This document shows, one piece after another, positions 2,335-64,000 of a DNA stretch of 64,000 bases (position 1 is the first letter of the stretch; each line of letters starts with the position of its first letter). Position numbers and translations under genes: made by a program. The notes below the pieces were generated by a model that did no database searches, had not been told where the DNA came from, and was given only the letters and a program-made list of their open reading frames with translations. Origin of the DNA: Diplonema papillatum (taxonomy: Eukaryota > Euglenozoa > Diplonemea > Diplonemida > Diplonemidae). Location: the NCBI GenBank assembly GCA_030068145.1, contig JAPJBO010000744.1, positions 49,019 to 113,018 of the forward strand. The letters are read 5' to 3'.

Positions 2335-5300
2335 CCGACGATATGCTGCGGCCCATGAGGGGCTCGAGGTCGTCGTCGATCGACGGCTTCCGCGCGTGGT
2401 GGACCGGCTGCTGGAGGAGGGACGCGGAGATGCTCGACGGGTTGCTCTGCGAGTCCTCCGGGACAGACGGGGCGACCGACGGCGGCGGCGTCGGCGACGG
2501 CTCGGCCGGCGGCGCGCGGCACGGCGAGGCAATGGACGGCGCCTTGCGGATGCGCTTGGAAAGGATGATGGACAGGGTGGGCACTTCGTCGAGGAGATAC
2601 CCGACGAGGCCCCAGCTCAAGTCGTCGAGCCACTGACTGTCGTCGACGATCAGCAGCATGCTGTGCCCGCGGAGCTTCCGGACGAAGAGGTACCGAACCG
2701 CGTCGTTTACCGACGCGACGTTCGACCACGACGTCCGCTGGGAAATCTCGTAGTTCAGGAGGCTTGCGCCCCGCTCACTCATCCTCCCATCGAGCGGCGA
2801 CGCTGCGTCCGACCCCGGCGCCGCGTCTGTCTCGCTGGGGGGCGAAACCGGATTGCCGCCCAACTTCGCCGCCGCCGGCTTCGCCGGCGGCGGCGGGGTG
2901 GCGCCGGGTTTGTCCTTAGCCTCGTTCTCCGAGCTGTCGCGGGGGGTCTCGTCTTCGGAGGCTTCGGCCTGCGAGGAGAGGAGCGCCGCGAGCAGTGGGA
3001 ACGTGGCCGCCAGCAGCCGGGTTTGGATCGGTTGGAGGGACATCGTCGCGGAGAGGTTCGACGTGAGAAGGTCCTCGATGAACCCTGCGAACGCGCCGTA
3101 CGGCGTCGACTGCGCGGAGAGCGAGCAGGCGACGAGCTTGTGCAGGATTTTCTTGTCCTTCGCGACCTCCGCCGCCTTGTGCAGCAGCAGGCTCTTCCCG
3201 ATGCCTGCCTCCCCTTCGATCAGCACGACCCGAGGCCGCGCGTACTCTATCGTCGAATTCGTGTTCGTCCGCTTCGCGCGCAGCCGGGGAGTCGACGCCG
3301 TCGGTCCCACGGCTTCCGCGGCGAAATTCGGGTTGGGGGTGCTCCCGGGCTCCGCGGGCTGCTGGGACGGCTTGGCTGGGGGTTCGCCCGGGCTGACGAT
3401 GGGCGGCGGGTTGTGGTTGTTGCTGGTGCTGCTGATGCCCGCGGAGCTCGTGTTGAAGCTGTTGCCGCGGGTGATGTGGTGGGGGACGGTGGACGCCGCT
3501 CCCTGCTGCGCCGTGAGATTCGACGCCAGCGGCATGACGGTCACGGCTGCGAGACTCGCCGTGCTTCCCCCTAACGCAACGCCGCCACAACCCCCGTAGC
3601 TCACCCCCAACCCCGCTCCTCCCACCACCCCAGAGCTAGCCGTGGAATGCATGCTGCCCGTTGCACACGGCACCGTCGTAGTCGTGCTAGCCGCCGGCCA
3701 CAACACAGGCACATGCCCTACCGCCGCCCCACTGCCCCGCCGCACTGTCGCGCGGGGCTGGTGCTGGTGTGGAGGTGGAGGGTCTGTAGGGGGGTCGGGC
3801 GGGGGGTCTGGCAGGTCTTGCAAGTCGTCTGAGGCAAACGGCGGGGGCTGGAGACGATCCTCCGCAGCCGGGAAGCCGGCCCTCGCGTCCACCGCGACGC
3901 CGGCCGCCGGCGCTTGCGGCGCCGGGATTTCGACGGACTTGCACGAAACCGACGGAGACGACGCGTCGGAGCTCGACGGCAGCTGCCCGCAGCCCGGCGC
4001 CTTCGCAGGCGCCGCTGGCGACGCAGCAGACAGCGGCGGAGACCTCCTGGGCCCGGCCGGCTGCTGCTGCTGCTGCTGCTTGTTGCTGTTGCCTGCGACT
4101 GCATGCGGGGCTCGGTTGTCGCGTGGCGACACGGGTGGAGACGGGCGGGTGCCGTCGATGCCGGCGGGCTGGCGCGGCCGCTTCTGGACCGACGTCGACG
4201 TTTTGTTCGACCGCCACGAGCCGTCGCGGTGGAACCCTGTTCCCGGCGGGACGTAAGGCCCGCCGTGTTCGTCGGAGCCGTTGGCGAGTGTGATGTAGTC
4301 CTGCACGGCTCCCTCGCTGCTGCTGTCCTCGTCCGTCACGTCGTGCGCCGCGGCTGCGTTGCACTGCGCGATGTTTTTCCGCCCGGGCGGTTTCCGCTTG
4401 TGCCCGCGGTTGATGCGTTGGGTCTGCTCGTACTCTGCAAGGCGCTCGATGACGACCGCGATCACACGCAGCTCTTCGATGCGACCAATGACCAGCAGCG
4501 ACCCTTGGTTCGTCGTGCAAGGGAACAGGATCGGCTGCTGGCTGAAGCTGTTCAAGAACCCTTCAGACACCGACGACGCTGAATCCGACATCGACACCCG
4601 CCTCCCTCCCTCGTCTACCCGCGCCATGTTCCGCAGCGACTTCGCCAGCGGCGTGATCGGGGTAACGCCCACCGACGACGCGGATCCCGCGCCGATTTGC
4701 TGGTGCGGTTTCCGCCTGGGGTCTTGGTTGTTGCGAGGCTCGCTGTGCTCGCTGTAGCTGCGTGACAGCAGGGACCCGGTGCTGATGGAGGAGACGAACG
4801 AGCTCGACCGCCGGAGGGACGGCGACGCGCGGACGTTGACCGAGCTCGAGGTGGTGATGCTGCGGCGGCTGTGCAGGTTGAGCGACGTTAGGAGCCGGAA
4901 GATCTTGACGGTCGCATCCTTGCCCTTCAGGCTGACCCGCGAAGCTTCGGTGAACGCGAAGTGCGCTCCGCACGCGTCCTTCGTCGCTTCATCCAGCACC
5001 ACCGGCAGACACACCCGGTCCGCCGACCCCGAAGCGTCACTCTCAGCATCCGCATCTTCACTATCCCCGTCCGAACTCACCTGGCCGGACTGCGCCCTCG
5101 CCTGTCCCATCAACCGCGCCGCGAGATTAACCCCATCGCCCAGCACGGTATACTCCCGCCGCTCTTGCGACCCGCAGATGCCGCAATACGCCCGCGACCG
5201 GCTGATCCCGAAGTAGCACTTCGTCCGCTCGCTGTCGATCTTCTGGAAGGTGTCCCGCGCGAACGCGACGCTCCGGCTCGCATCGTCCTCATGCGACATG

Positions 5301-23390: not shown

Positions 23391-23935
23391 AATGCTGGTT
23401 TTTTTTTTTTTTTGAGTAAGCAACTACGGAAGACATGCAGGGGGCGAGAACTGCATTTACTTGTACGGGCAAGTCGTTCTTTTGTTCCTTTTGTCAAACT
23501 AGGAAAGAAGAAGGATGGACTCTTCCTGTGCATGGAGTAGAACTCCGACCGTGACTCATGCCACCATCGCCAGATAGTCGTTGTTAGGATAGCTTACCCT
23601 TAGGCTGCTAAATTGTCTGTCGGTAAAGATCGTCAGTCGAATCAGATTCGAACATTGTAGTGGCAGCGACAATCATCAATTCAATCTCTTAGTGTTATGT
23701 AGAAGGACCACCAACGAAAAGTTGATGGAACGCAGGCTGGGAGGACATGTGGAGGGACTAGAACTTAGGTCAGCCAGAGAAGGGGCGTTGCCCAGAACTG
23801 AGTCTACAACGTAGGGGGAGAAGGAGCATTCAGACAGTACCAGATTGTGACCAATCCATTAACAGAATCCGTTTCGTGAGTACAAGCGGCGAACTAACAG
23901 TAATCCGATCACTGAGAACATTGTAAAATATCCAA

Positions 23936-28852: not shown

Positions 28853-30091
28853 TCAACAGCCGTCGTCAGTATCCATGTCGAGGATGTCAGAGCCGTCAGC
28901 ATTTTTGGAAGCTTTCTTGGCGGGTTGCGGCGGGTGAGGGTCGACCGCCTGGCGTTTTTCCGCCTTGCGAGGCTCAACAGTCTCCTTCCACTTCCCGAAA
29001 ATCGAATCCATGTACTCGACGACCTTTTTGGTGCGCTCTGCACACTGCTCGGCAACCTTGTCGATGTCAGCACGAATGGCGACGAACTCGGCCTTGGAAT
29101 CAACTTTGTCAGCTTTAACGTTGCGACCCAGTTCGTCCACGCGGTCATCCAACACCTTATTTTGTTGGATAAGTACGTCGGACGTCACCGTGCAATTGGC
29201 AATTTCCGACGCGACGAGAGCTTCGATCCGAGAGATATCCGCCTTCCTCTCTTCTCTCTCAAGCCGCAAATCGGTTTGCACTTGCGTGATGCTCGATTGT
29301 AACCCATCAGAGTCTGCTGTGTGGGGAGGGGCAGCGGTGTACGCGGGAGGCCCGATGTATGCCCTTCGTCGCGACGCGGAAGCGGGAATAAGCCGGATTG
29401 TAATCCCGTCGACGTGGTACTCGAGTACAGTCGGTTGAACTAGTAGTCGTATGTGCCAATCATCCTCCGAGGTAGGCCTGTAAAGGGCCGCATCGAGACC
29501 CATCGATTCGAGAGCGGCTGCAACATGGTTTCTGCCAGCCCCAGCAGGAACACCAGTGAGCGAAAAGTGCCACTTCTCCACGCAACGTCCTTTCAAACGC
29601 TTCGCGAATTGCTGACCATATCCTTCCCTAACGCGAACGCCGTACCCCCTAGACGAGACGACAAGACCCCAGTAGTCGTCTGCATTGGGTTGAAGACTAC
29701 CCAAGTACCCGTCGATATCATCGTGCCCTTCATTGATCGCCCAAATCACGTCGAAGCGCCGCCGCTTGTCGTACGTCTCCTTGTTCAAGAGTTCGTTGAA
29801 GAAGAGCCGTTGGCATCCCGACGCCCGCAAAAGCTTCTCGGCAGACACTCTACAGCAGAAGAGCCAAGCCGTGTAAGCGGATTTCCCCGCTGAGGAACCA
29901 GTCATGTGAGGTTTTACGAGCCTGTACGGGCAGCCCCTTCCGAGCAGACGTCGCAGTCTGAAATCCAGTTCCTGCCGTACTTCACTGATGTCGACAAGGC
30001 CACCGTTGGCCGTCTCGACCACCTCATGTATCTGCACGACCAATGCACAATCACCACTCAAATCATCACGCCATACGCCCTCGGCAGCCAT
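28853..30091 (-). CDS. LINE1 ORF1 protein
   Basis: 412 residues from an ATG 94 nt after the SL-like sequence. I recognise no catalytic domain. Residues ~1-250 look globular. Residues ~270-370 are charged and heptad-like (DLRLEREERKADISRIEAL onward), suggesting a coiled coil, and the C-terminus has basic patches (KAEKRQ, PAKKASK) followed by an acidic end. ORF1 proteins of LINEs bind element RNA in ribonucleoproteins; that role is inferred from position only. The stop is a single TGA (28855-28853), and the same frame then runs open into ORF2. Confidence 0.75.
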   Translation of the reverse strand: MAAEGVWRDDLSGDCALVVQIHEVVETANGGLVDISEVRQELDFRLRRLLGRGCPYRLVKPHMTGSSAGKSAYTAWLFCCRVSAEKLLRASGCQRLFFNELLNKETYDKRRRFDVIWAINEGHDDIDGYLGSLQPNADDYWGLVVSSRGYGVRVREGYGQQFAKRLKGRCVEKWHFSLTGVPAGAGRNHVAAALESMGLDAALYRPTSEDDWHIRLLVQPTVLEYHVDGITIRLIPASASRRRAYIGPPAYTAAPPHTADSDGLQSSITQVQTDLRLEREERKADISRIEALVASEIANCTVTSDVLIQQNKVLDDRVDELGRNVKADKVDSKAEFVAIRADIDKVAEQCAERTKKVVEYMDSIFGKWKETVEPRKAEKRQAVDPHPPQPAKKASKNADGSDILDMDTDDGC

Positions 30092-30169
30092 CGGACTATA
30101 ACGGAACCAACGTACTGTCGTGAACCGGCGAAAAGGTTCCCACTAGCTACCCAGGAGATTCGTGGCCCT

Positions 30170-30222
30170 CAATAAAGTACAGAAACAATAAAGTACAGAA
30201 ACTGTAGCTTTTAAATCGTTGG
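30170..30222 (-). other. Spliced-leader sequence fixed at the LINE1 5' end, with a second partial copy
   Basis: On the minus strand 30222-30186 begins CCAACGATTTAAAAGC and ends TTTCTGTACTTTATTG, 37 nt in all, matching the Diplonema SL exon as I recall it. It is followed without a gap by a second copy of only the last 16 nt (30185-30170). There is no adjacent donor GT or SL RNA body, so it is not an SL RNA gene. Confidence 0.8.
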
Positions 30223-30229
30223 GGCGGGG

Positions 30230-30450
30230 GAAATTTTTCTCAGCTTTGCTCAAGAAATATTTTTCGCATACCAAGGGGGGGGGGGGGTCTGGGGACCCAC
30301 CTTTTCATTCTGCCAAGTCGGTGGGCAGGTGGCCCGCTCAGGAAAAAATCTGTGCTCCCTTAGCAACTTTTTTGCAAATTCTTACCAGGAATTGTAATGC
30401 AAAATAGGGACTAGTCCCCTAAGGGCACATTTCACATTGGGACTAGTCCC
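30230..30450 (-). repeat. Dispersed repeat, inverted relative of 21320-21440 and 60615-60740
   Basis: Shares AGCACAGATTTTTTCCTGAG and GGTGGGTCCCC on the minus strand, then GGGACTAGTCCCC-type palindromes at 30408-30455. No gene. Confidence 0.6.
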
Positions 30451-30475
30451 CTGAGGCACTTTTCTAATATTCGGC

Positions 30476-30798
30476 TTAGTACACGCTGTGGTCGTGGGCA
30501 TCACTTTCTGCGTGACTTCGTGCACGGTGCTCCGGTCCGACTCTAAGCCACCGTCGCATGCAGCTTGTGCACACATTATCGTGTTCCGATGCAGATGAAA
30601 TACATCCCCATCACGTCCCAGTTCTGCTCGTCAACCGAGACGCCGAGCTTGAAGATGCTCTTCCCCGCAGCAGCAGCCGGCGCCGCATCCCAGCCCCACG
30701 TAGGGCCACGCCTTGAAAGCTCCGGTCACGGCTCCCATCATTCTCCCATAGAACCCGGGGGTTGCTCAGGGTTTTACTGTATCGCTCCTATCAAAATT
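30476..30798 (-). pseudogene. 5' fragment copy of the MLO-like gene
   Basis: Similar to 20690-21030, covering the 5' leader and the first ~90 codons, with deletions and frame breaks (for example in the Ala-rich N-terminal part). Similarity starts just after an AG in the gene's leader (ATAG/GAGCGA here, ACAG/GAGCGA there), which would fit copying of a processed transcript, though no SL or A-tail is seen. It sits between the 5' end of LINE1 and the 3' end of LINE2. Confidence 0.8.
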
Positions 30799-31321
30799 AT
30801 GGACGACTTGCACGTTTTTCTTTTTGTGTTTCCGACGATCCGAATGGACGTACAGATTGGTGTCTTTCGACCTTTTGGATGCTTGTGAAGTTCAGCTTAG
30901 TGCGTGCTTGTGGTGATCGGTGGGGTTCCCAAAAGAAAATGTTTCGTGTTATCGTATCTTCGAGCTAGACTTGATCTCGTGCATTAGCCAAGTGGCCCAT
31001 TCTGTTGCTTTTCCGCTGGGCTCCTGATAGCGGACTCGCGCGCAAACAGACAGTATGACTGCTGTGTTGCGGGCTGCAAATTCATCCAATACTTGTCTGT
31101 ACCACCCATTCCACGAAAAAGTGTCACAGATTTTCCGTCTGAAAAGCAGCCCGTTTTGGGTCAAAATTTTGGAATTTTTGGGAAATTTTTTTTGGGATGG
31201 AAAGAGCTATCCCTGGCGATTATGGGCAAGCAATCAGCTCGCGTGGCGACCAAAATCTGGCGTGCAGATGGACAAAAGGTCGGTTTTGGGGCTGTTTCAA
31301 AAACCCAAAAAAACGATTTCC

Positions 31322-31386
31322 GGCGGGAATCGAACCACCGACCCTCAAACCCCTGTGTGGGTGTGGTATCCTCTGGACCATGGGCT
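31322..31386 (-). other. tRNA-like sequence in the TIR element
   Basis: The minus strand has a TGGTCCAGAGG box A-like and a GGTTCGATTCC box B, about 35 nt apart. The acceptor and T stems pair poorly, so it is tRNA-derived rather than a working tRNA. Confidence 0.4.
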
Positions 31387-31587
31387 AAAAAAAAGGCGGA
31401 ATTTTTTTTTGTTCACTACCGAGTGAGAATTTTTGGACTCATTTTGAGTTCTTCGCAAACCGGGCGAAATAAGCTCTGAGAGAGCAGAAATACCGTCCTG
31501 GGACACTGGAAACGAGTAAATGACGATCTCGCACTTTCCGATAAGAATTCCAACTGAGCAGGCGCTAAAAGCGAATTTTGGCCCGAG

Positions 31588-31672
31588 GTTTGGCAACATA
31601 GCCTAACGGTTACCGCACCCTCCTGGGCCCCTGTAGGCCATGGTTCGATTCCCCCGGTCCGATTTTTTTTTT
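31588..31672 (+). other. tRNA-like sequence with downstream T-run in the TIR element
   Basis: TAGCCTAACGG fits box A, GGTTCGATTCC fits box B, and a T12 run follows at once, as a Pol III terminator would. Spacing matches a tRNA-Glu-like layout, but the anticodon and acceptor stems do not pair. Confidence 0.42.
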
Positions 31673-34600
31673 TTGCGATTTTTCGGTGTGAAAAGCAGCC
31701 GTCTGGAAATTATTTTCGAGGTCTTTTTGGGAAATCTTTTGGTTTTCGAGTAGTTCTGGGATGCGCGATTATGGGCAAGCTGCCAGCTAGCCCAGCGATC
31801 AAAATCTGACCCCCTCCTGGATGCAGAGAGAAAAAAAACCGATCTCCAGGACCCCATTTTTTCGGGTGCCGACCTCCATTTCCGGTGGGGGGGTCGGTCA
31901 AAATTTTTATCCGACCAAATATTCGGAAAGCCCTGTCCTCAACGGATTCAAACGTGTCCTCAAAATCTCGAAACCGACCATTTTCGGACCTGCAGATGGA
32001 AATTTTCGGCAGAAATCCGAAAAAAGCCGAAATCTGTGACACTTTTTCGTGGAATGGGTGGTACGTTACCTCACTCTGTCCAAAGATGCGCGTGAGGTTG
32101 GCTTCGGGTCCGTAGCATAGAATATGTCGTTCATCGCCAGCCGTCAGGACATGATCTGCACTTCCTCGGTGGTAGCAGCCTTCTACGGCGCACTCGTTGC
32201 GGGTTTTGAACGGCATGATGGCTCTACGGGTGAGTGCTTGGAGGAGATCCGAAGCTCCATGCAGGTTCCCCAGCGCCCGCAGGGCTTGTGCGCTGAGGCA
32301 GCGAGGTGGTACGTCGGTAGATAGTCGATTACGGACCGCGGTGTCGCGACCGTCGGTACGGTTTCTCCTCGCGAAGAGTCCGTTTTCTTCGAGTTGCACC
32401 AGGTCACCATTGTTGTCTTCGGTATCGTCTTCTTGCCACCGTTGGCACAGCCTGGCAACGTTGGCCTTGCGGTAGCACCATTCGACGTTGAATGTGCTGC
32501 TTTTTTGGTAAGCGGCGTTTGCTGCGACGTCTGCCGCGTTGATGTCGGCATTGTCGCTGTGTCCCCTGGCCCACTGCACATCTGGGAGAGTACACAGCAC
32601 CATGGCGACCGGGTCCCCTTTGCGGGGGTTCCTTAACCGGGCGATGGCGCTCATGCTGTCGCTTCGCGGCTTGGCCATCGCGTGGGGCTTGACTTCCTTC
32701 AGTGCAGTCGCTAGAACCATCATCGCACACAATTCTGCTTGTGTGCTCGAGCTGATCCTCCCATGGATCTTCGCACCGTAGGCCCTGCCGTTGACGCAAA
32801 TTCCGACAGCGCCTCTGCCTTCTTTTTCCAGGTAGCTCCCGTCGGTTGCTACTCTGACGACATCGCCGCTTGCTTCAGCTTCTCTGAGCGCCCTCTCGGT
32901 CCATGTTATGACGTAGGGCTTTCGCACCCTCCGCGGTGGGCGCAGCTCGAATCCGGTTGCTGGGATTCTGCCTTCCGTCAGGTCGGGGTGGGCGGCCAGG
33001 TAAGCCCTTACCTTTTGCTGTTCAGAGAAGTCCTTTATCGGTGTCATTCCGTATCCAAAGGAGCAGGCCGGATATCCTGAGATTCCATTGCTTCCATGGT
33101 GTCTTGGGATGAGTTTTGTGTAAGCGGCTTGCAACTTGGGGTGCGTCGGGTCGAAGCACTTCGAGACTGCCTGTATGGCGAGCGTTGGCAGCGCATAGCT
33201 TCTGTAGAGCTCACTCTTGCCTCGAGTGGAGCAGTAGTAAGACTGCGAGATCATTGCACAGACTCTGCTGAAGCGTTCGACTCTTTTCCGATTACGTGCA
33301 CAGGATGCGTGGTCGTTGTCTCCGTGTAGGCATCCCCCGAGAAGTCTAGTGGACAGCCGCGTCGTCACCGTGCCAAGACCGGGAATCGGTATCTTGCTGA
33401 CCCTCGAAGCGACCACCACTAGCTTTCTTCGGGCCAACTTAAAGCCCCTGCTTGTCATCCAGTCGTTGAGCACCTGTACTTGAACCGGGACCGATTTGAC
33501 CGCTGCGAGAGATGTAAGGTCGTCAACGTAGGCTTTGCACTGTGTGAGGTCTGGCGGGTCCGCTGTGTAATACAGGTAGAGTATCACGCTCAGTGGGGAA
33601 CCCTGCAGCAGTCCTCTCCTCAGCGCCATAGGCGGGGTAAAACCTTCGTTAGTGGTCAGCGTATACCACTGCGACTCTAACACTGCCTCGATCGATCTCG
33701 CCCACTCGTCTCCGAAGTCGTTGCGTATTTTTTCCAGTAGCTTGTCGTGTGGTACTGTGTCGTAGGCTGCTTCGATGTCAGCGATGACAACTGCTGGGTC
33801 CTCTTCGTCGCCGCCGTCCATCCATTCTTGCGCCCGCTGGAGGATCTCGAGGGTGGCATGCTGCCGCTGGCATCCGTATTGGAAGTCTTTGGCTTTAATC
33901 CGCTCAATGCAGAGGTCTCGGATCTTGAGGTAGACGCAGACGTGGAGGAATTTTAGCATCAGTGGCATGATGGCAATTGGTCGGTAGGCGTTCGGGGAGG
34001 TTTTTGGGATGCCGGGTTTCGAGATGAGAAAAATCCATGACAGCGCATGTTCGTGCGGGATTCCGGCTTCCAGCCACTCGTTAAAAGTGTCAGCTACAGT
34101 CGTAATTTCTTTTGGGCGGAGTGTGGATAAGAACGTTGCCGACAGGTCGGTCGTCCTAGCCTTCTTCTTCACGAATGGAATCGCTGTCTCTACGTCTTCC
34201 GGCGACAGTTTGTGGTGTCTCTCGGTCTCCTCTTTTTTTTCCATCGGTCTAGGGGCTCGCGTTGCTACCGCGTCGTATCTGCTCTGGAACCGGTCAACTA
34301 CGGCGGCGACATTCAGGACTCTCGGGGGCTCGTACGGTCGTCGTTGTTGGAGGGCGTGGTTGCTGGTTTCGCCCCTGGTGGCGTAGGCGATTCGTTTCCG
34401 AATGTCGCTGACCTGGCGGTTCATCTCCTTCTTGTCGGCTTCGTCGGTGGCATTGCGTCGCTTCAACATCCTCGTATTTAACGCTCGCTGGAGTCGCGCA
34501 ATCTTCGTCGTGCGGTATCGGGGCGGCCGGTATGCGATTGGGCTTAGCATTGTTGCCATGAGGCCATCGAAGTCGTCTGCGGTTGGTCGGTCGTTTTTGG

Positions 34601-35732
34601 GGTATCTCATGGGCGGGATGATCTTTACGATCGTGTGGTCGTATTCAAGGCTGATCGCTGCATGGTCACTGCCTCCGGTGAACCGGGCTGATTCGAAGGT
34701 GCAGCTTGTGTTGCGGGGAACAAAGACTCTGTCCAGCGATGTATCTGCGTTGCTCCTGTGGTATGTAGTGCGTCCTCGCACCAGTTCGTCCCCTGCGTTG
34801 CGTCTGACGATTCCCTCGACTGTTGGTGTGGTGTTGCCGTTGAAGTCGCCGGTAACTACGTATTCTCCCACGCAGCGCCTCATGGTGTTGACGATCCAGC
34901 TGCCGAGTGCCTCCGCCTCTGCCCTTGGGGTGTTGTTCACCACATACACTGAGATCACCCGCAGGACGTGTTCCCCGATTTTAAGATCGGCAAAGCAGCA
35001 CGAGCGGTGGGACCCAGTCCGCAGTACTTGCATCGTAGAGTCAGTTCGAATCAGAATGCTGCTGCGTGCGATCCGCTTCTGTCCATTCGTCTCTGTTGCT
35101 GTGACTAGCGGGTTCCAGCCCTTGAGGAGCGCCACGTCTTCAAATACGCGGGGATCCCTTCCAATCTCACTCGCTGTGAGGATGTGTGTTCTGGGTAGGA
35201 GGTCGAAGTAGGCTACCAGGCTTTTCTTGCAGCAGGAGTTGCAGCTAGCGATGCGCACTTTGCTTTGGCCGGCGTTGTTACGACGATGGTCTGCGATGAT
35301 ACGATGGTTTTCGGGGTTGTTTTGGGTGCCTCCACGGGGGAAGGTAGGTGGGAACATGGTGAGCTGAACTGTTGATTGGTTGGTTGAGGAGTTGGGCTGC
35401 TGTAGCGCTACTCGCGGCTCGGTGGTAGGCAGGTGTAGTGCCCCCGACACGGTGCTGAGTGGTGCATCTGGTAGGATCGGTGGATGATAAGTTGAGGTAG
35501 GGATGATCAAGTTGGGAAAGCGGGCGTCGCTCCGTGCAGTGATGGGTGTTGGCAGGAGGGGCACAGATGATGATGCGAGGGCTGGGTTTGGGAAGAGGGG
35601 AGGCCCAGCTGATGTCGTGGGCGCGTTAACTTGAATTGGCGGTGGTTGTGGTTGTGGTTGATTGTCGATAGGGCTGCAGTTGGTCGTCTGCGACACAGGG
35701 CTTGACGTCGTCACTGCTTCGGTAGGTTGATA

Positions 35733-36830
35733 TTACAGCCTGGGTGGGGTTCTCGGTGGTGGTGTCCATCCGGCTTCGCCGGGAGCTGCTCGTTTTGTTC
35801 CACGCCTTTCTTCGTCATGTTTGTCCTGAGACACTTCCCCCTCTTCGATCTGCGGCGGACCGTCGTCTTCTTCGTCATTGTTCTGCTCCTCTGTGTTGGT
35901 TACGTGCGTCGCTTGCTGTTGGTTGCCGTCGTCTTCTTCTGCAATTCCGCTTTCGTCGTCACTGGTGTCCTCCGCCAAATTAGGTTGGGCGTCCTCGGTG
36001 TCCGGCTTCATGAGGTGGCCGATCTGCCCAAACCGCAGCACGTTCCCGAAAGGGGTTGCAAACGGGATCCTGGCGAGATCTGCTTCGTCCACAGGGTCGA
36101 GACCCTCCACGACATATGCAACGAAGCCCGGCCGCAGTCCGAACACCGGATACACCCGCAGTTGTTGACCAATCTGGGGGCGTATTGCTGCTGTGGCTAG
36201 CGCCCCGGAGATCTCCAGCGTGTGGAAAGTCCTGTCACAGCCCGTCAAGCCGAATTTTCCTTTCGATCTCTCCACGAACTGTTGTCGTTGATCTTCACGT
36301 CGGGCTTTGGTGACGATGTATCTGTCGCCGTGTTTCAGGGCCAGTCCCAACGGGTCTAACAGCTCTGCCAGGTCCGTCCACTTGCCTTCAGTGTCAGGGC
36401 GCACCTTTATAAGGTATTCGTTTGCGCCTGTGCGCAGGACGCGGGCGTCCATCCTGGTGTCCTCGAGGGCCCGCATCACCTCGTGGAATGGGAGGATCGT
36501 GCTGTCCTTCCGTGCGCGTTGGAACGTTTTCAGCTCAGTCCATCCCGGTTCTGGGAGTGCCCACTCTGCGTAGTACGCACTATATCCGGCTTCGCGGACC
36601 GCTTGAAAGATGGCCTTCTCGTCGCAGTTCTCCTTTACCCGTACCAACTTAATGGCGTTCGAGCGGAAGAAGCCGGCTGCGTTCCGTACGTCCTCGATGG
36701 CTGCCTCGCCTCCCATTTTTTTGAAAAGGTTGCCGAACCCTTCCGCTGGTCCACAGATGGAAAGTAGTCGCTTGAGGTCGTCCTGGATGGACGACAGCTC
36801 GATGATGCGCTTTTCAGACACAGTCGACAT
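35733..36830 (-). CDS. LINE2 ORF1 protein
   Basis: 365 residues starting MSTVSEKR, 60 nt after the SL-like sequence. No catalytic motif. Residues ~1-280 appear globular with mixed charge. The last ~80 are very acidic (EDTSDDESGIAEEDDG) followed by a basic, Pro-rich end (RRGTKRAAPGEAG). It has no evident similarity to LINE1 ORF1. The stop is TAA (35735-35733), followed in the same frame by YQPTEA and then the GTG used as the ORF2 count start. Confidence 0.72.
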   Translation of the reverse strand: MSTVSEKRIIELSSIQDDLKRLLSICGPAEGFGNLFKKMGGEAAIEDVRNAAGFFRSNAIKLVRVKENCDEKAIFQAVREAGYSAYYAEWALPEPGWTELKTFQRARKDSTILPFHEVMRALEDTRMDARVLRTGANEYLIKVRPDTEGKWTDLAELLDPLGLALKHGDRYIVTKARREDQRQQFVERSKGKFGLTGCDRTFHTLEISGALATAAIRPQIGQQLRVYPVFGLRPGFVAYVVEGLDPVDEADLARIPFATPFGNVLRFGQIGHLMKPDTEDAQPNLAEDTSDDESGIAEEDDGNQQQATHVTNTEEQNNDEEDDGPPQIEEGEVSQDKHDEERRGTKRAAPGEAGWTPPPRTPPRL

Positions 36831-36890
36831 TTCGGGGGTTTTCCAATTTTTGGTTTCTTTTTTTTTTTTTTTTTTTTACATAAGCGCCAG

Positions 36891-36930
36891 CAATAAAGTA
36901 CAGAAACTGTAGCTTTTTAAATCGTTGGTT
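36891..36930 (-). other. Spliced-leader sequence fixed at the LINE2 5' end
   Basis: The minus strand reads AACCAACGATTTAAAAAGC and ends TTTCTGTACTTTATTG, with one extra A in the A-run compared with the LINE1 copy. It is followed by CTGGCGCTTATGT and an A-run leader, then the ORF1 ATG at 36830. Confidence 0.8.
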
Positions 36931-39178: not shown

Positions 39179-39320
39179 TTACCGCAGGGATAACTGGCTT
39201 GTGGCAGCCAAGCGTTCATAGCGCCGTTGCTTTTTGATCTGATAATAAGCTATATGATGTCGGCTCTTCCCAACCTAGACAAGCAGAATAGTGTGAGGGT
39301 TGGATTGTTCACCCACTAAC

Positions 39321-39364
<44 letters not shown>

Positions 39365-39947
39365 TTACCCTACTGATGGAGAGAGAGCCCATCGGGCCAG
39401 CGCATTCCGACAGCAATACGGGGTAGTACGAGAGGAACTCCCGTTTCTAGTCCGGGTATGGCTGGTACCTGTCAGTTCGTCTGTTGGGCCAGCGCATTCC
39501 GACAGCAATACGGGGTAGTACGAGAGGAACTCCCGTTTCTAGTCCGGGTATGGCTGGTACCTGTCAGTTCGTCTGTTGGGCCAGCGCATTCCGACAGCAA
39601 TACGGGGTAGTACGAGAGGAACTCCCGTTTCTAGTCTGCCCTCCCTGGTATCTACGGTTGTTCGATCGGACAGTGCCGTGATGCTACCACTGGATGGATT
39701 ATGGCTGAACGCCTCTAAGCCAGAACCCAGTCTAGAGGAATGCGTGAGATATTACTCGGGGCACATCGGATTTATCGGGCCACGACTAGCTTCTTGCTCC
39801 TTCGATGTCCGCTCACACCGGGATAAACCTTTGTTCGATGTGGGTGTCAGACTTGTCACACCGGATTCTAAGGCTGAGGACGCCATCCGGGGAGAAGCTA
39901 GAGGACTTCGTCGTCCGCTGAAGTGCACAATCTCGTTGTTGGTTTAA
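39179..39947 (+). pseudogene. Large-subunit rRNA fragment (domains V-VI) with triplicated sarcin-ricin segment
   Basis: Starts ACCGCAGGGATAACTGGCTT, a universal domain V sequence, and runs through GTCGTGAGACAGGTTGGTTT to the sarcin-ricin loop AGTACGAGAGGAAC and the 3' helices. A 92-bp unit (GGGCCAGCGCATTCCGACAG start) occurs at 39394, 39486 and 39578, so the loop is present three times, which a working rRNA could not have. The 5' part of LSU is absent; a dispersed repeat precedes it. It is an rRNA fragment or orphon, not an rDNA unit. Confidence 0.93.
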
Positions 39948-63595: not shown

Positions 63596-64000
63596 GAGTT
63601 TCTGCTCTTCGTATTGTCTGACGAGAACTGCCGAGAAGAAAAGGAGAAGTAAGAACACGTCTTTGTAACTGATAGCCTAGCGCAAGGGAATGTTGAGTGA
63701 CTGCCTTAACCCGGGGAAACGAGCTTGGGCGAGGTCACCGGGGGGTTAGGGAGGGTGGGAAAACTTGACTGTTTCTTTGAACCAACCACACCCTGAAGGC
63801 TGTGTAGAGTTCTCTAATCGACTTTCGTGGTGCATCAACTCCCTCAGTGAAACTGTGATTGTCCCACATTTTTGGGTCACCAATACTGACGTTTGAGGGT
63901 TGTCCCACTTTTTTCGATGACCGAAGTGGGACAACCCTCAAACGTCAGTATTGGTGACCCAAAAAAGTGGGACAACCCTCAAACGTCAGTATTGGTGATC
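63596..64000. repeat. Interruption and orientation switch of the 41-bp satellite
   Basis: 63596-63855 is unique sequence. 63858-63921 resumes the array, and at about 63922 (GATGACCGAAGTGGGACAAC) it turns into the opposite orientation to the window end. Head-to-head junction. Confidence 0.85.

Follow-up and report, generated by a model that had tools for sequence, protein, structure and literature searches.

Two different long interspersed nuclear elements (LINEs) of the diplonemid Diplonema papillatum carry a copy of the host spliced leader (SL) fixed in the DNA at their 5' ends. Both lie on the minus strand of the stretch analysed here, 64,000 nucleotides (nt) of contig JAPJBO010000744.1 in assembly GCA_030068145.1 (positions 49,019 to 113,018 of the forward strand; hereafter the window). 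A first inspection of the window's letters had pointed to these SL copies and proposed that the RNA that was reverse transcribed had been the trans-spliced mRNA; the observation is real and is stronger than this original prediction knew. The evidence as a whole is very probably best explained by LINE-type retrotransposons whose RNA intermediate is a host-processed, trans-spliced and polyadenylated mRNA. Three features of the sequence make reverse transcription of trans-spliced mRNA well supported: AG precedes the junctions, the copies mostly begin at the second nucleotide of the leader, and relics of older leaders follow the CAG inside the SL. In the relic-bearing families, use of this SL-internal CAG as the next acceptor appears equally well supported.

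The SL deduced from two fetched D. papillatum SL RNA genes is AACCAACGATTTAAAAGCTACAGTTTCTGTACTTTATTG, and both genes read AACC at the 5' end. That it is the organism's true SL was confirmed by 194 SL RNA gene sites in which the same exon end is followed by the SL RNA intron (32-nt exon–intron pattern, up to two mismatches; all genome-wide searches refer to the assembly of 271,365,524 bases). The genome paper reports a 39-bp SL exon, a 75-nt SL intron and 110 SL RNA genes (at least 90% identity), with the SL on essentially all mRNAs and genes arranged in long co-oriented clusters; its text on transposable elements annotates LINE-1 and SLACS-like gene models, or SLACS-like reverse transcriptases (RTs), and SL copies go unmentioned there (PMC10161547). 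The SL itself contains an acceptor, CTACAG/TTTCTG, where the slash marks the junction.

At element 1, an exact 35-nt SL core occupies 30186-30220 and is extended by two C's to 30186-30222. The 17-nt SL end (three mismatches allowed) is found three times in the window, at 30170-30186, 30186-30202 and 36891-36907. Chance origin of these copies is ruled out by 0 hits in shuffled sequences, by 0.14 expected versus 3 SL ends and by a reversed control that gave 0. As originally predicted, each SL lies upstream, in sense, of an open reading frame (ORF), namely an intact ORF1 of 412 amino acids (aa) in element 1 and 365 aa in element 2, accompanied by an RT-encoding ORF2; and no donor or SL RNA body follows, as the SL RNA intron start GTACTTTAACAC was found behind neither SL. 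The ORF2 of element 1 has the domain set of a LINE of the apurinic/apyrimidinic endonuclease (APE) type (PF00078, 2.3e-30; PF03372, 2.4e-17), and its best PDB match is LINE-1 ORF2p. In element 2 the RT domain matches at 8.2e-15, with endonuclease and RNase H below the Pfam cut-off. The two ORF1s show no detectable relation (best E 0.056) and the two ORF2s resemble each other only weakly, in RT/RNase H (23% identity, E 4e-05); the 56 SL entries analysed (element 1 entered twice) fall into 13 ORF groups (blastp, 1e-6), some of which may be distant kin. The claim that the trait does not go back to a single copying event is thereby borne out. Two features had been overlooked, the relic of element 1 at 30170-30185 and the leader of element 2, CTGGCGCTTATGT(A)n, which comes from a high-copy repeat. 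Element 1 ends in GCTTAC[TC]C(A)15-16, a tail shared by two of five relatives whose 3' regions were fetched and not found in the other three at the estimated positions.

The SL copies of the window are part of a dispersed set. The genome contains 618 SL-core sites (35 nt, up to three mismatches; reversed control 0), and exact 16-mers from the SL 3' and 5' ends occur 701 and 624 times. Set against the 194 gene sites, the 701 3' 16-mers, ~22 of which are relic units, leave roughly 430-510 SL copies outside SL RNA genes. We sampled 30 exact-match loci in contig order, so from the largest contigs, and obtained 2 SL RNA genes and 28 dispersed copies. Family assignment used ORF groups together with the domains that representatives carry 2-5 kb downstream. 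RT or APE endonuclease is encoded by the representatives of families that hold 20 of the 28 sites: 17 sites belong to LINE-type families, in which endonuclease or RT was seen (representatives of L001, L002, L004 and L025), and 3 to another RT family (L007). Five more belong to a group with a sub-threshold RNase H match (L012) or none (L017), which L014 joins in looser clustering only, and the remaining three fall outside these families, one with an astacin-like domain (L006). Host-gene retrocopies may thus be present, but as no more than a minority of the sample. Outside the 28, the representatives for L038 and L036 gave no Pfam match in the stretch scanned. Downstream of the SL, 27 of the 28 dispersed sites have a sense ORF of 200 aa or more, compared with 18 (downstream antisense), 9 (upstream sense) and 6 (upstream antisense) in controls at the same sites. 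Taken alone, the long sense ORF is a weak argument, because antisense ORFs of this length occur at 18/28 sites; together with the RT and endonuclease families, it shows that the SL is not equally common in random places.

The acceptor can be read from sequences that occur both with and without the leader. Loci L001-L097 and the window yielded 40 distinct 16-nt sequences after an exact SL end, once A-rich sequences, relic units and SL RNA genes had been dropped. Nine were also found without the SL, and AG precedes eight of them, both window elements included (P ~2e-9 at a frequency of 1/16 and 8e-8 at 0.10; AG occupies ~6% of window positions). The SL-free relatives of element 1, L063 and L072, read ...GAAAGCCAG/AGGGCCACG, i.e. 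GCCAG/AGGGCC, and in L070 the SL sits at a more upstream junction with the inner GCCAG/AGGGCC kept. The leader of element 2 is the 3' end of a repeat present at 2,887 places in the genome (letter 13 bases upstream limited to A, G or T), probably a short interspersed nuclear element (SINE) in view of its copy number and A-tail. AG precedes CTGGCGCTTATGT at 96 of the 100 places listed of these 2,887 (counted by eye), and therefore element 2 probably descends from a parent located in the A-tail of a SINE and trans-spliced at an AG within that SINE, a 5' transduction. Flanking repeats, of presumed source, seem to have been transduced in L021 and L036 as well. Elsewhere in the window, at 63777-63792 (minus), an SL-free copy of the leader of the SL-tagged family L011 has CTTCAG before it and is, by its letters, an unspliced acceptor.

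The position at which the homology begins was examined in 47 dispersed copies whose inner SL is intact. Nucleotide 2 (A) is kept in 38 and nucleotide 3 (C) in 41, and nucleotide 1 is A in 16 only. The homology thus mostly begins at nucleotide 2 of the mature leader, as expected for an RT that stops just short of the cap. This bears on the proposal that the LINEs insert into SL RNA genes in the manner of SLACS, CZAR and CRE, the SL being a target remnant. Such insertion is known from euglenozoan CRE elements (PMC12278014), and SLACS-like RTs are annotated in this genome (PMC10161547). For the copies studied here the proposal is already contradicted and practically untenable: the printed dispersed junctions lack the SL RNA intron and, as judged by eye, have no upstream sequence of SL RNA genes in common, the homology mostly stops at SL nucleotide 2, AG stands at the parental junctions, relics are present, and element 1 encodes an APE-type endonuclease. 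A motif, ACTCAATGCT or TGCTTAAC, is shared by 9 of the 28 sampled upstream flanks, up to 45 bases upstream of the SL (L001, L003, L005, L010, L019, L021, L023, L024 and L030); it resembles a different target repeat and hints that such a repeat is preferred. A fixed insertion place within SL RNA genes, which marks SLACS, CZAR and CRE, was found neither for the window elements nor at the dispersed junctions looked at.

Relics were searched for as exact second SL ends at any distance of 11-41 nt behind the first. The search returned 28 rows, and 23 of them, representing 20 loci, have a 16-nt step, with a substitution in one unit. The unit starts directly after the CTACAG of the SL; relics of 22 nt, after the other AG of the SL, were not found, though the search would have caught them. 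There are one to three relics per locus, with three at one locus and two at another. Fourteen of the 20 loci have an outer SL that is unaltered from CCAACG through CTACA; it is altered or shortened at L031, L032, L038, L042, L051 and L055, the last two probably being one event because they have their upstream flank in common. Downstream ORFs of the relic loci fall into six groups without detectable relation. A 16-bp tandem duplication or polymerase slippage would yield the same letters; since 20 loci from 6 ORF groups share both the unit and its start point, in a search open to other spacings, such an origin is extremely unlikely. Altered units are innermost in L049 and L047, which fits decay of older relics, although these two cases are anecdotal because the exact-unit search biases them. 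Template switching onto SL RNA or another mRNA during reverse transcription, with no trans-splicing of the element RNA, would likewise place an SL at the 5' end, and might apply to the relic-free GCTGCTCAC family. However, it would not explain the AG before the junction in SL-free relatives, and it would neither stop at the SL exon end nor give relics that begin where the CAG ends; we regard it as very unlikely.

Reverse transcription of trans-spliced mRNA with re-use of the SL acceptor also fits a series within the element-1 family, which runs from SL-free copies (L063, L072) through a 12-nt SL end at the inner AG junction (L062, L064) to the SL plus relic of the window, as the model predicts. 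The 12-nt end, which has identical flanks in L062 and L064, is either a truncated SL or a truncated relic, and L062-L064 match at 100% (rounded) over a 610-base query. Separately, CGGATT lies at or near the insertion point in the 5' flanks of L062, L063, L064 and L066 of this family, possibly another target preference.

Several observations weigh against this account. The ninth junction of the acceptor set has AT in place of AG (L045 versus L004), and the pair L003/L013, uncounted as its 16-mers did not match, has a junction shift without AG. Five of the 28 double-SL rows have other spacings (L037, L044, L046, L047 and L053), most with A-tracts between or beside the SL ends. No target-site duplication was seen by eye in three element-1-family copies, where one inside an A-tract would be invisible. 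The SL is also far from universal among copies. In the element-2 family, 22 of 27 matches were examined (the window, L041 and 20 more); the SL is present in 6 and absent from the 200-300 bases fetched in 16. Homology nevertheless reaches the ORF1 start, or nearly, in 12 of these 16, with an A-tract or other flank at the 5' side, and these copies may have been 5' truncated at the A-tract. Among 12 places of the element-1 family, two have the whole SL (window, L070), two the SL end only (L062, L064) and eight no SL in the stretch fetched, with the longer leader kept in two of the eight (L063, L072). The original suggestion that the SL marks full-length copies is therefore overstated: it fails for copies whose homology extends to, or almost to, the ORF1 start with no SL.

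The GCTGCTCAC family poses a further difficulty. It was counted at 73 sites that keep an exact 19-mer (69 + 4), each with 9 nt of SL or more. The relic loci include none of them, a pattern that serial re-splicing at the CAG does not predict, and no SL-free parent was found among these 73 exact-19-mer sites. In this family the SL may be a start site, may be replaced scarlessly, or all copies may come from a few masters. We consider it possible, if doubtful, that in relic-free families with a fixed SL the genomic SL serves as the transcription start or is replaced without a scar at a TG acceptor. The 73 sites of one 5' end, all of which keep remains of the SL, would agree with this, and both a promoter role for the SL (PMC6050394) and a TG acceptor (PMC12014239) have been proposed in dinoflagellates. 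Yet the same family has AG-type trans-splicing at an inner site (L023, CATCCAG/GACAAA), a 10-nt unit directly after the SL, as a TG-acceptor relic, occurs at one locus only, and the 73-site count takes in only copies that keep the searched 19-mer. One member, L098, encodes an AlkB-like 2OG-Fe(II) oxygenase domain at 604-2826 (PF13532, 2.2e-12) in one open frame with the LINE endonuclease.

We propose the following cycle. A copy would be transcribed, most simply via read-through from host polycistronic transcription, and the cell would join an SL to this RNA, using an AG acceptor that lies within the element or a short way upstream of it. At the new insertion site, reverse transcription of the SL-mRNA would run nearly as far as the cap, so that the SL becomes part of the DNA. 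The CTACAG/TTTCTG of this fixed SL could serve as the acceptor for another SL in a subsequent round, and only the final 16 nt of the older leader would then survive, as the relic; where the acceptor used is in flanking host DNA, the flank would be carried along as a 5' transduction. The splicing itself, the read-through transcription, its recurrence in each cycle and the absence of an own promoter are steps that we infer. Relics, on this scheme, seem to count retrotransposition cycles.

A LINE has to keep an intact, transcribable 5' end after each jump, and the usual answer is an internal promoter. Here host trans-splicing appears to solve this problem, and the copied leader brings the next acceptor with it. 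Because the SL holds a 3' splice site, CTACAG/TTTCTG, its copy may be a working part and not a scar, a portable trans-splice acceptor with which the LINEs need no promoter or 5' untranslated region of their own; in our judgement this could go either way. If true, the LINEs depend on polycistronic transcription by the host and regain a capped 5' end in every round, and their leaders, made of SL, relics, transduced flanks, A-tracts and older SL ends, are an ordered record of cycles and insertion sites. Retrotransposition cycles would become countable from DNA via the relics, and the transduced flanks would show where the parent copy had been.

The closest parallel comes from dinoflagellates, where relict DinoSLs and mRNA recycling were reportedly described by Slamovits and Keeling in 2008. 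In these organisms relict SLs cut at AG lie behind a canonical SL and have been taken to mark rounds of mRNA recycling (PMC3229502, PMC6050394, PMC12014239). Both systems have an SL fixed in DNA 5' of retroposed sequences outside SL RNA genes, and tandem relics truncated at an internal AG whose number gives the rounds. Unlike the dinoflagellate host retrogenes, which have another SL, belong to another lineage and are of uncertain RT source, the families here encode RT or endonuclease (20/28 sites) and live in a diplonemid. The relic logic is thus extended from retrogenes to autonomous retrotransposons in a distant lineage; what is new is that autonomous LINEs, in a euglenozoan, show it. A literature search that did not cover bioRxiv and most subscription journals, and in which some listings were incomplete, gave no earlier description of SL copies at the 5' ends of euglenozoan LINEs; this does not establish absence from print. 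SLACS, CZAR and CRE are likewise LINE-order, SL-associated and euglenozoan, and differ in that they insert into SL RNA genes, whereas the SL here is the copied 5' end of the element's own mRNA. L1 and processed pseudogenes of mammals also involve reverse transcription of polyadenylated RNA and transduction of flanks; mammalian L1, unlike the elements here, has its own promoter and lacks a trans-spliced leader. The CAGTTTCTG part of the SL is common to kinetoplastids, and relics are possible there. L1Tc/ingi are, as here, LINEs of trans-splicing euglenozoans (trypanosomatids); they have a 5' promoter element, Pr77, and the Pr77-derived reporter transcripts tested lacked the SL (PMC4748587). Their 5' hallmark has been linked to a hepatitis delta virus (HDV)-like ribozyme (PMC4035085). 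No HDV-like ribozyme was detected in the window at the Rfam gathering cut-off, which a diverged ribozyme could escape.

Table 1. Features of the two SL-bearing LINEs in the window (start and end in window positions).
Feature	Position	Strand	Remark
Element 1, SL copy at 5' end, 37 of 39 nt	30186..30222	-	exact match; mature SL from SL RNA genes
Element 1, 16-nt SL relic TTTCTGTACTTTATTG directly behind full SL	30170..30185	-	begins where SL-internal CAG ends
Element 1, leader, begins AGGGCC	30092..30169	-	GCCAG/AGGGCC in SL-free relatives L063, L072; kept as inner junction in L070
Element 1, ORF1, 412 aa, open	28853..30091	-	start 30091; no Pfam match
Element 1, ORF2 frame: endonuclease PF03372, RT PF00078, RNase H PF00075	23936..28852	-	Pfam
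Element 1, 3' poly(A), 15 A after GCTTACTC	23399..23413	-	similar tail in L110, L111
Element 2, SL copy at 5' end, one extra A in A-run	36891..36928	-	A-tract precedes SL
Element 2, CTGGCGCTTATGT, 3' end of high-copy repeat (probable SINE; CAAG precedes it in repeat)	36878..36890	-	
Element 2, A-tract after CTGGCGCTTATGT (presumed former SINE tail)	36858..36877	-	
Element 2, ORF1, 365 aa, open	35733..36830	-	start 36830; no Pfam match
Element 2, ORF2 frame, RT PF00078; broken toward 3' side	32066..35732	-	boundary by eye

Further SL-bearing sequences were noted outside the window. On contig C192, three SL-bearing elements (L115, L116 and L117) lie head to tail ~5,957 bases apart, and in two of them the SL comes after a shared tail with an A-tract at its end, as though each element had used the A-tail of its neighbour as insertion site; L054 also sits in an A-tail of the element-1 type. 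An SL-tagged gene group made up of L006, L046, L052 and L058, with the astacin-like domain in L006 and the 16-nt relic in L052 and L058, possibly consists of host-mRNA retrocopies. On contig C91, a tandem A+T-rich unit recurs at four sites 1,994 bases apart, and in the two fetched (L118 and L119) an SL with one substitution precedes a short ORF; the unit could be a retroposed host or foreign gene.

Within the window, the frame of element 2 ORF2 is interrupted near its end by a foldback element at 31100-32064 (by eye) with inverted arms TACCACCCATTCCACGAAAAAGTG..., in which some stretches resemble tRNA B boxes; ARAGORN finds no tRNA. The only Rfam matches in the window at the gathering cut-off are two pieces of 28S rRNA at 39189-39744 on the plus strand (Rfam large-subunit rRNA, LSU, model positions 2825-2984 and 3007-3161), and the genome paper reports ~3600 such scattered 28S pieces (PMC10161547).

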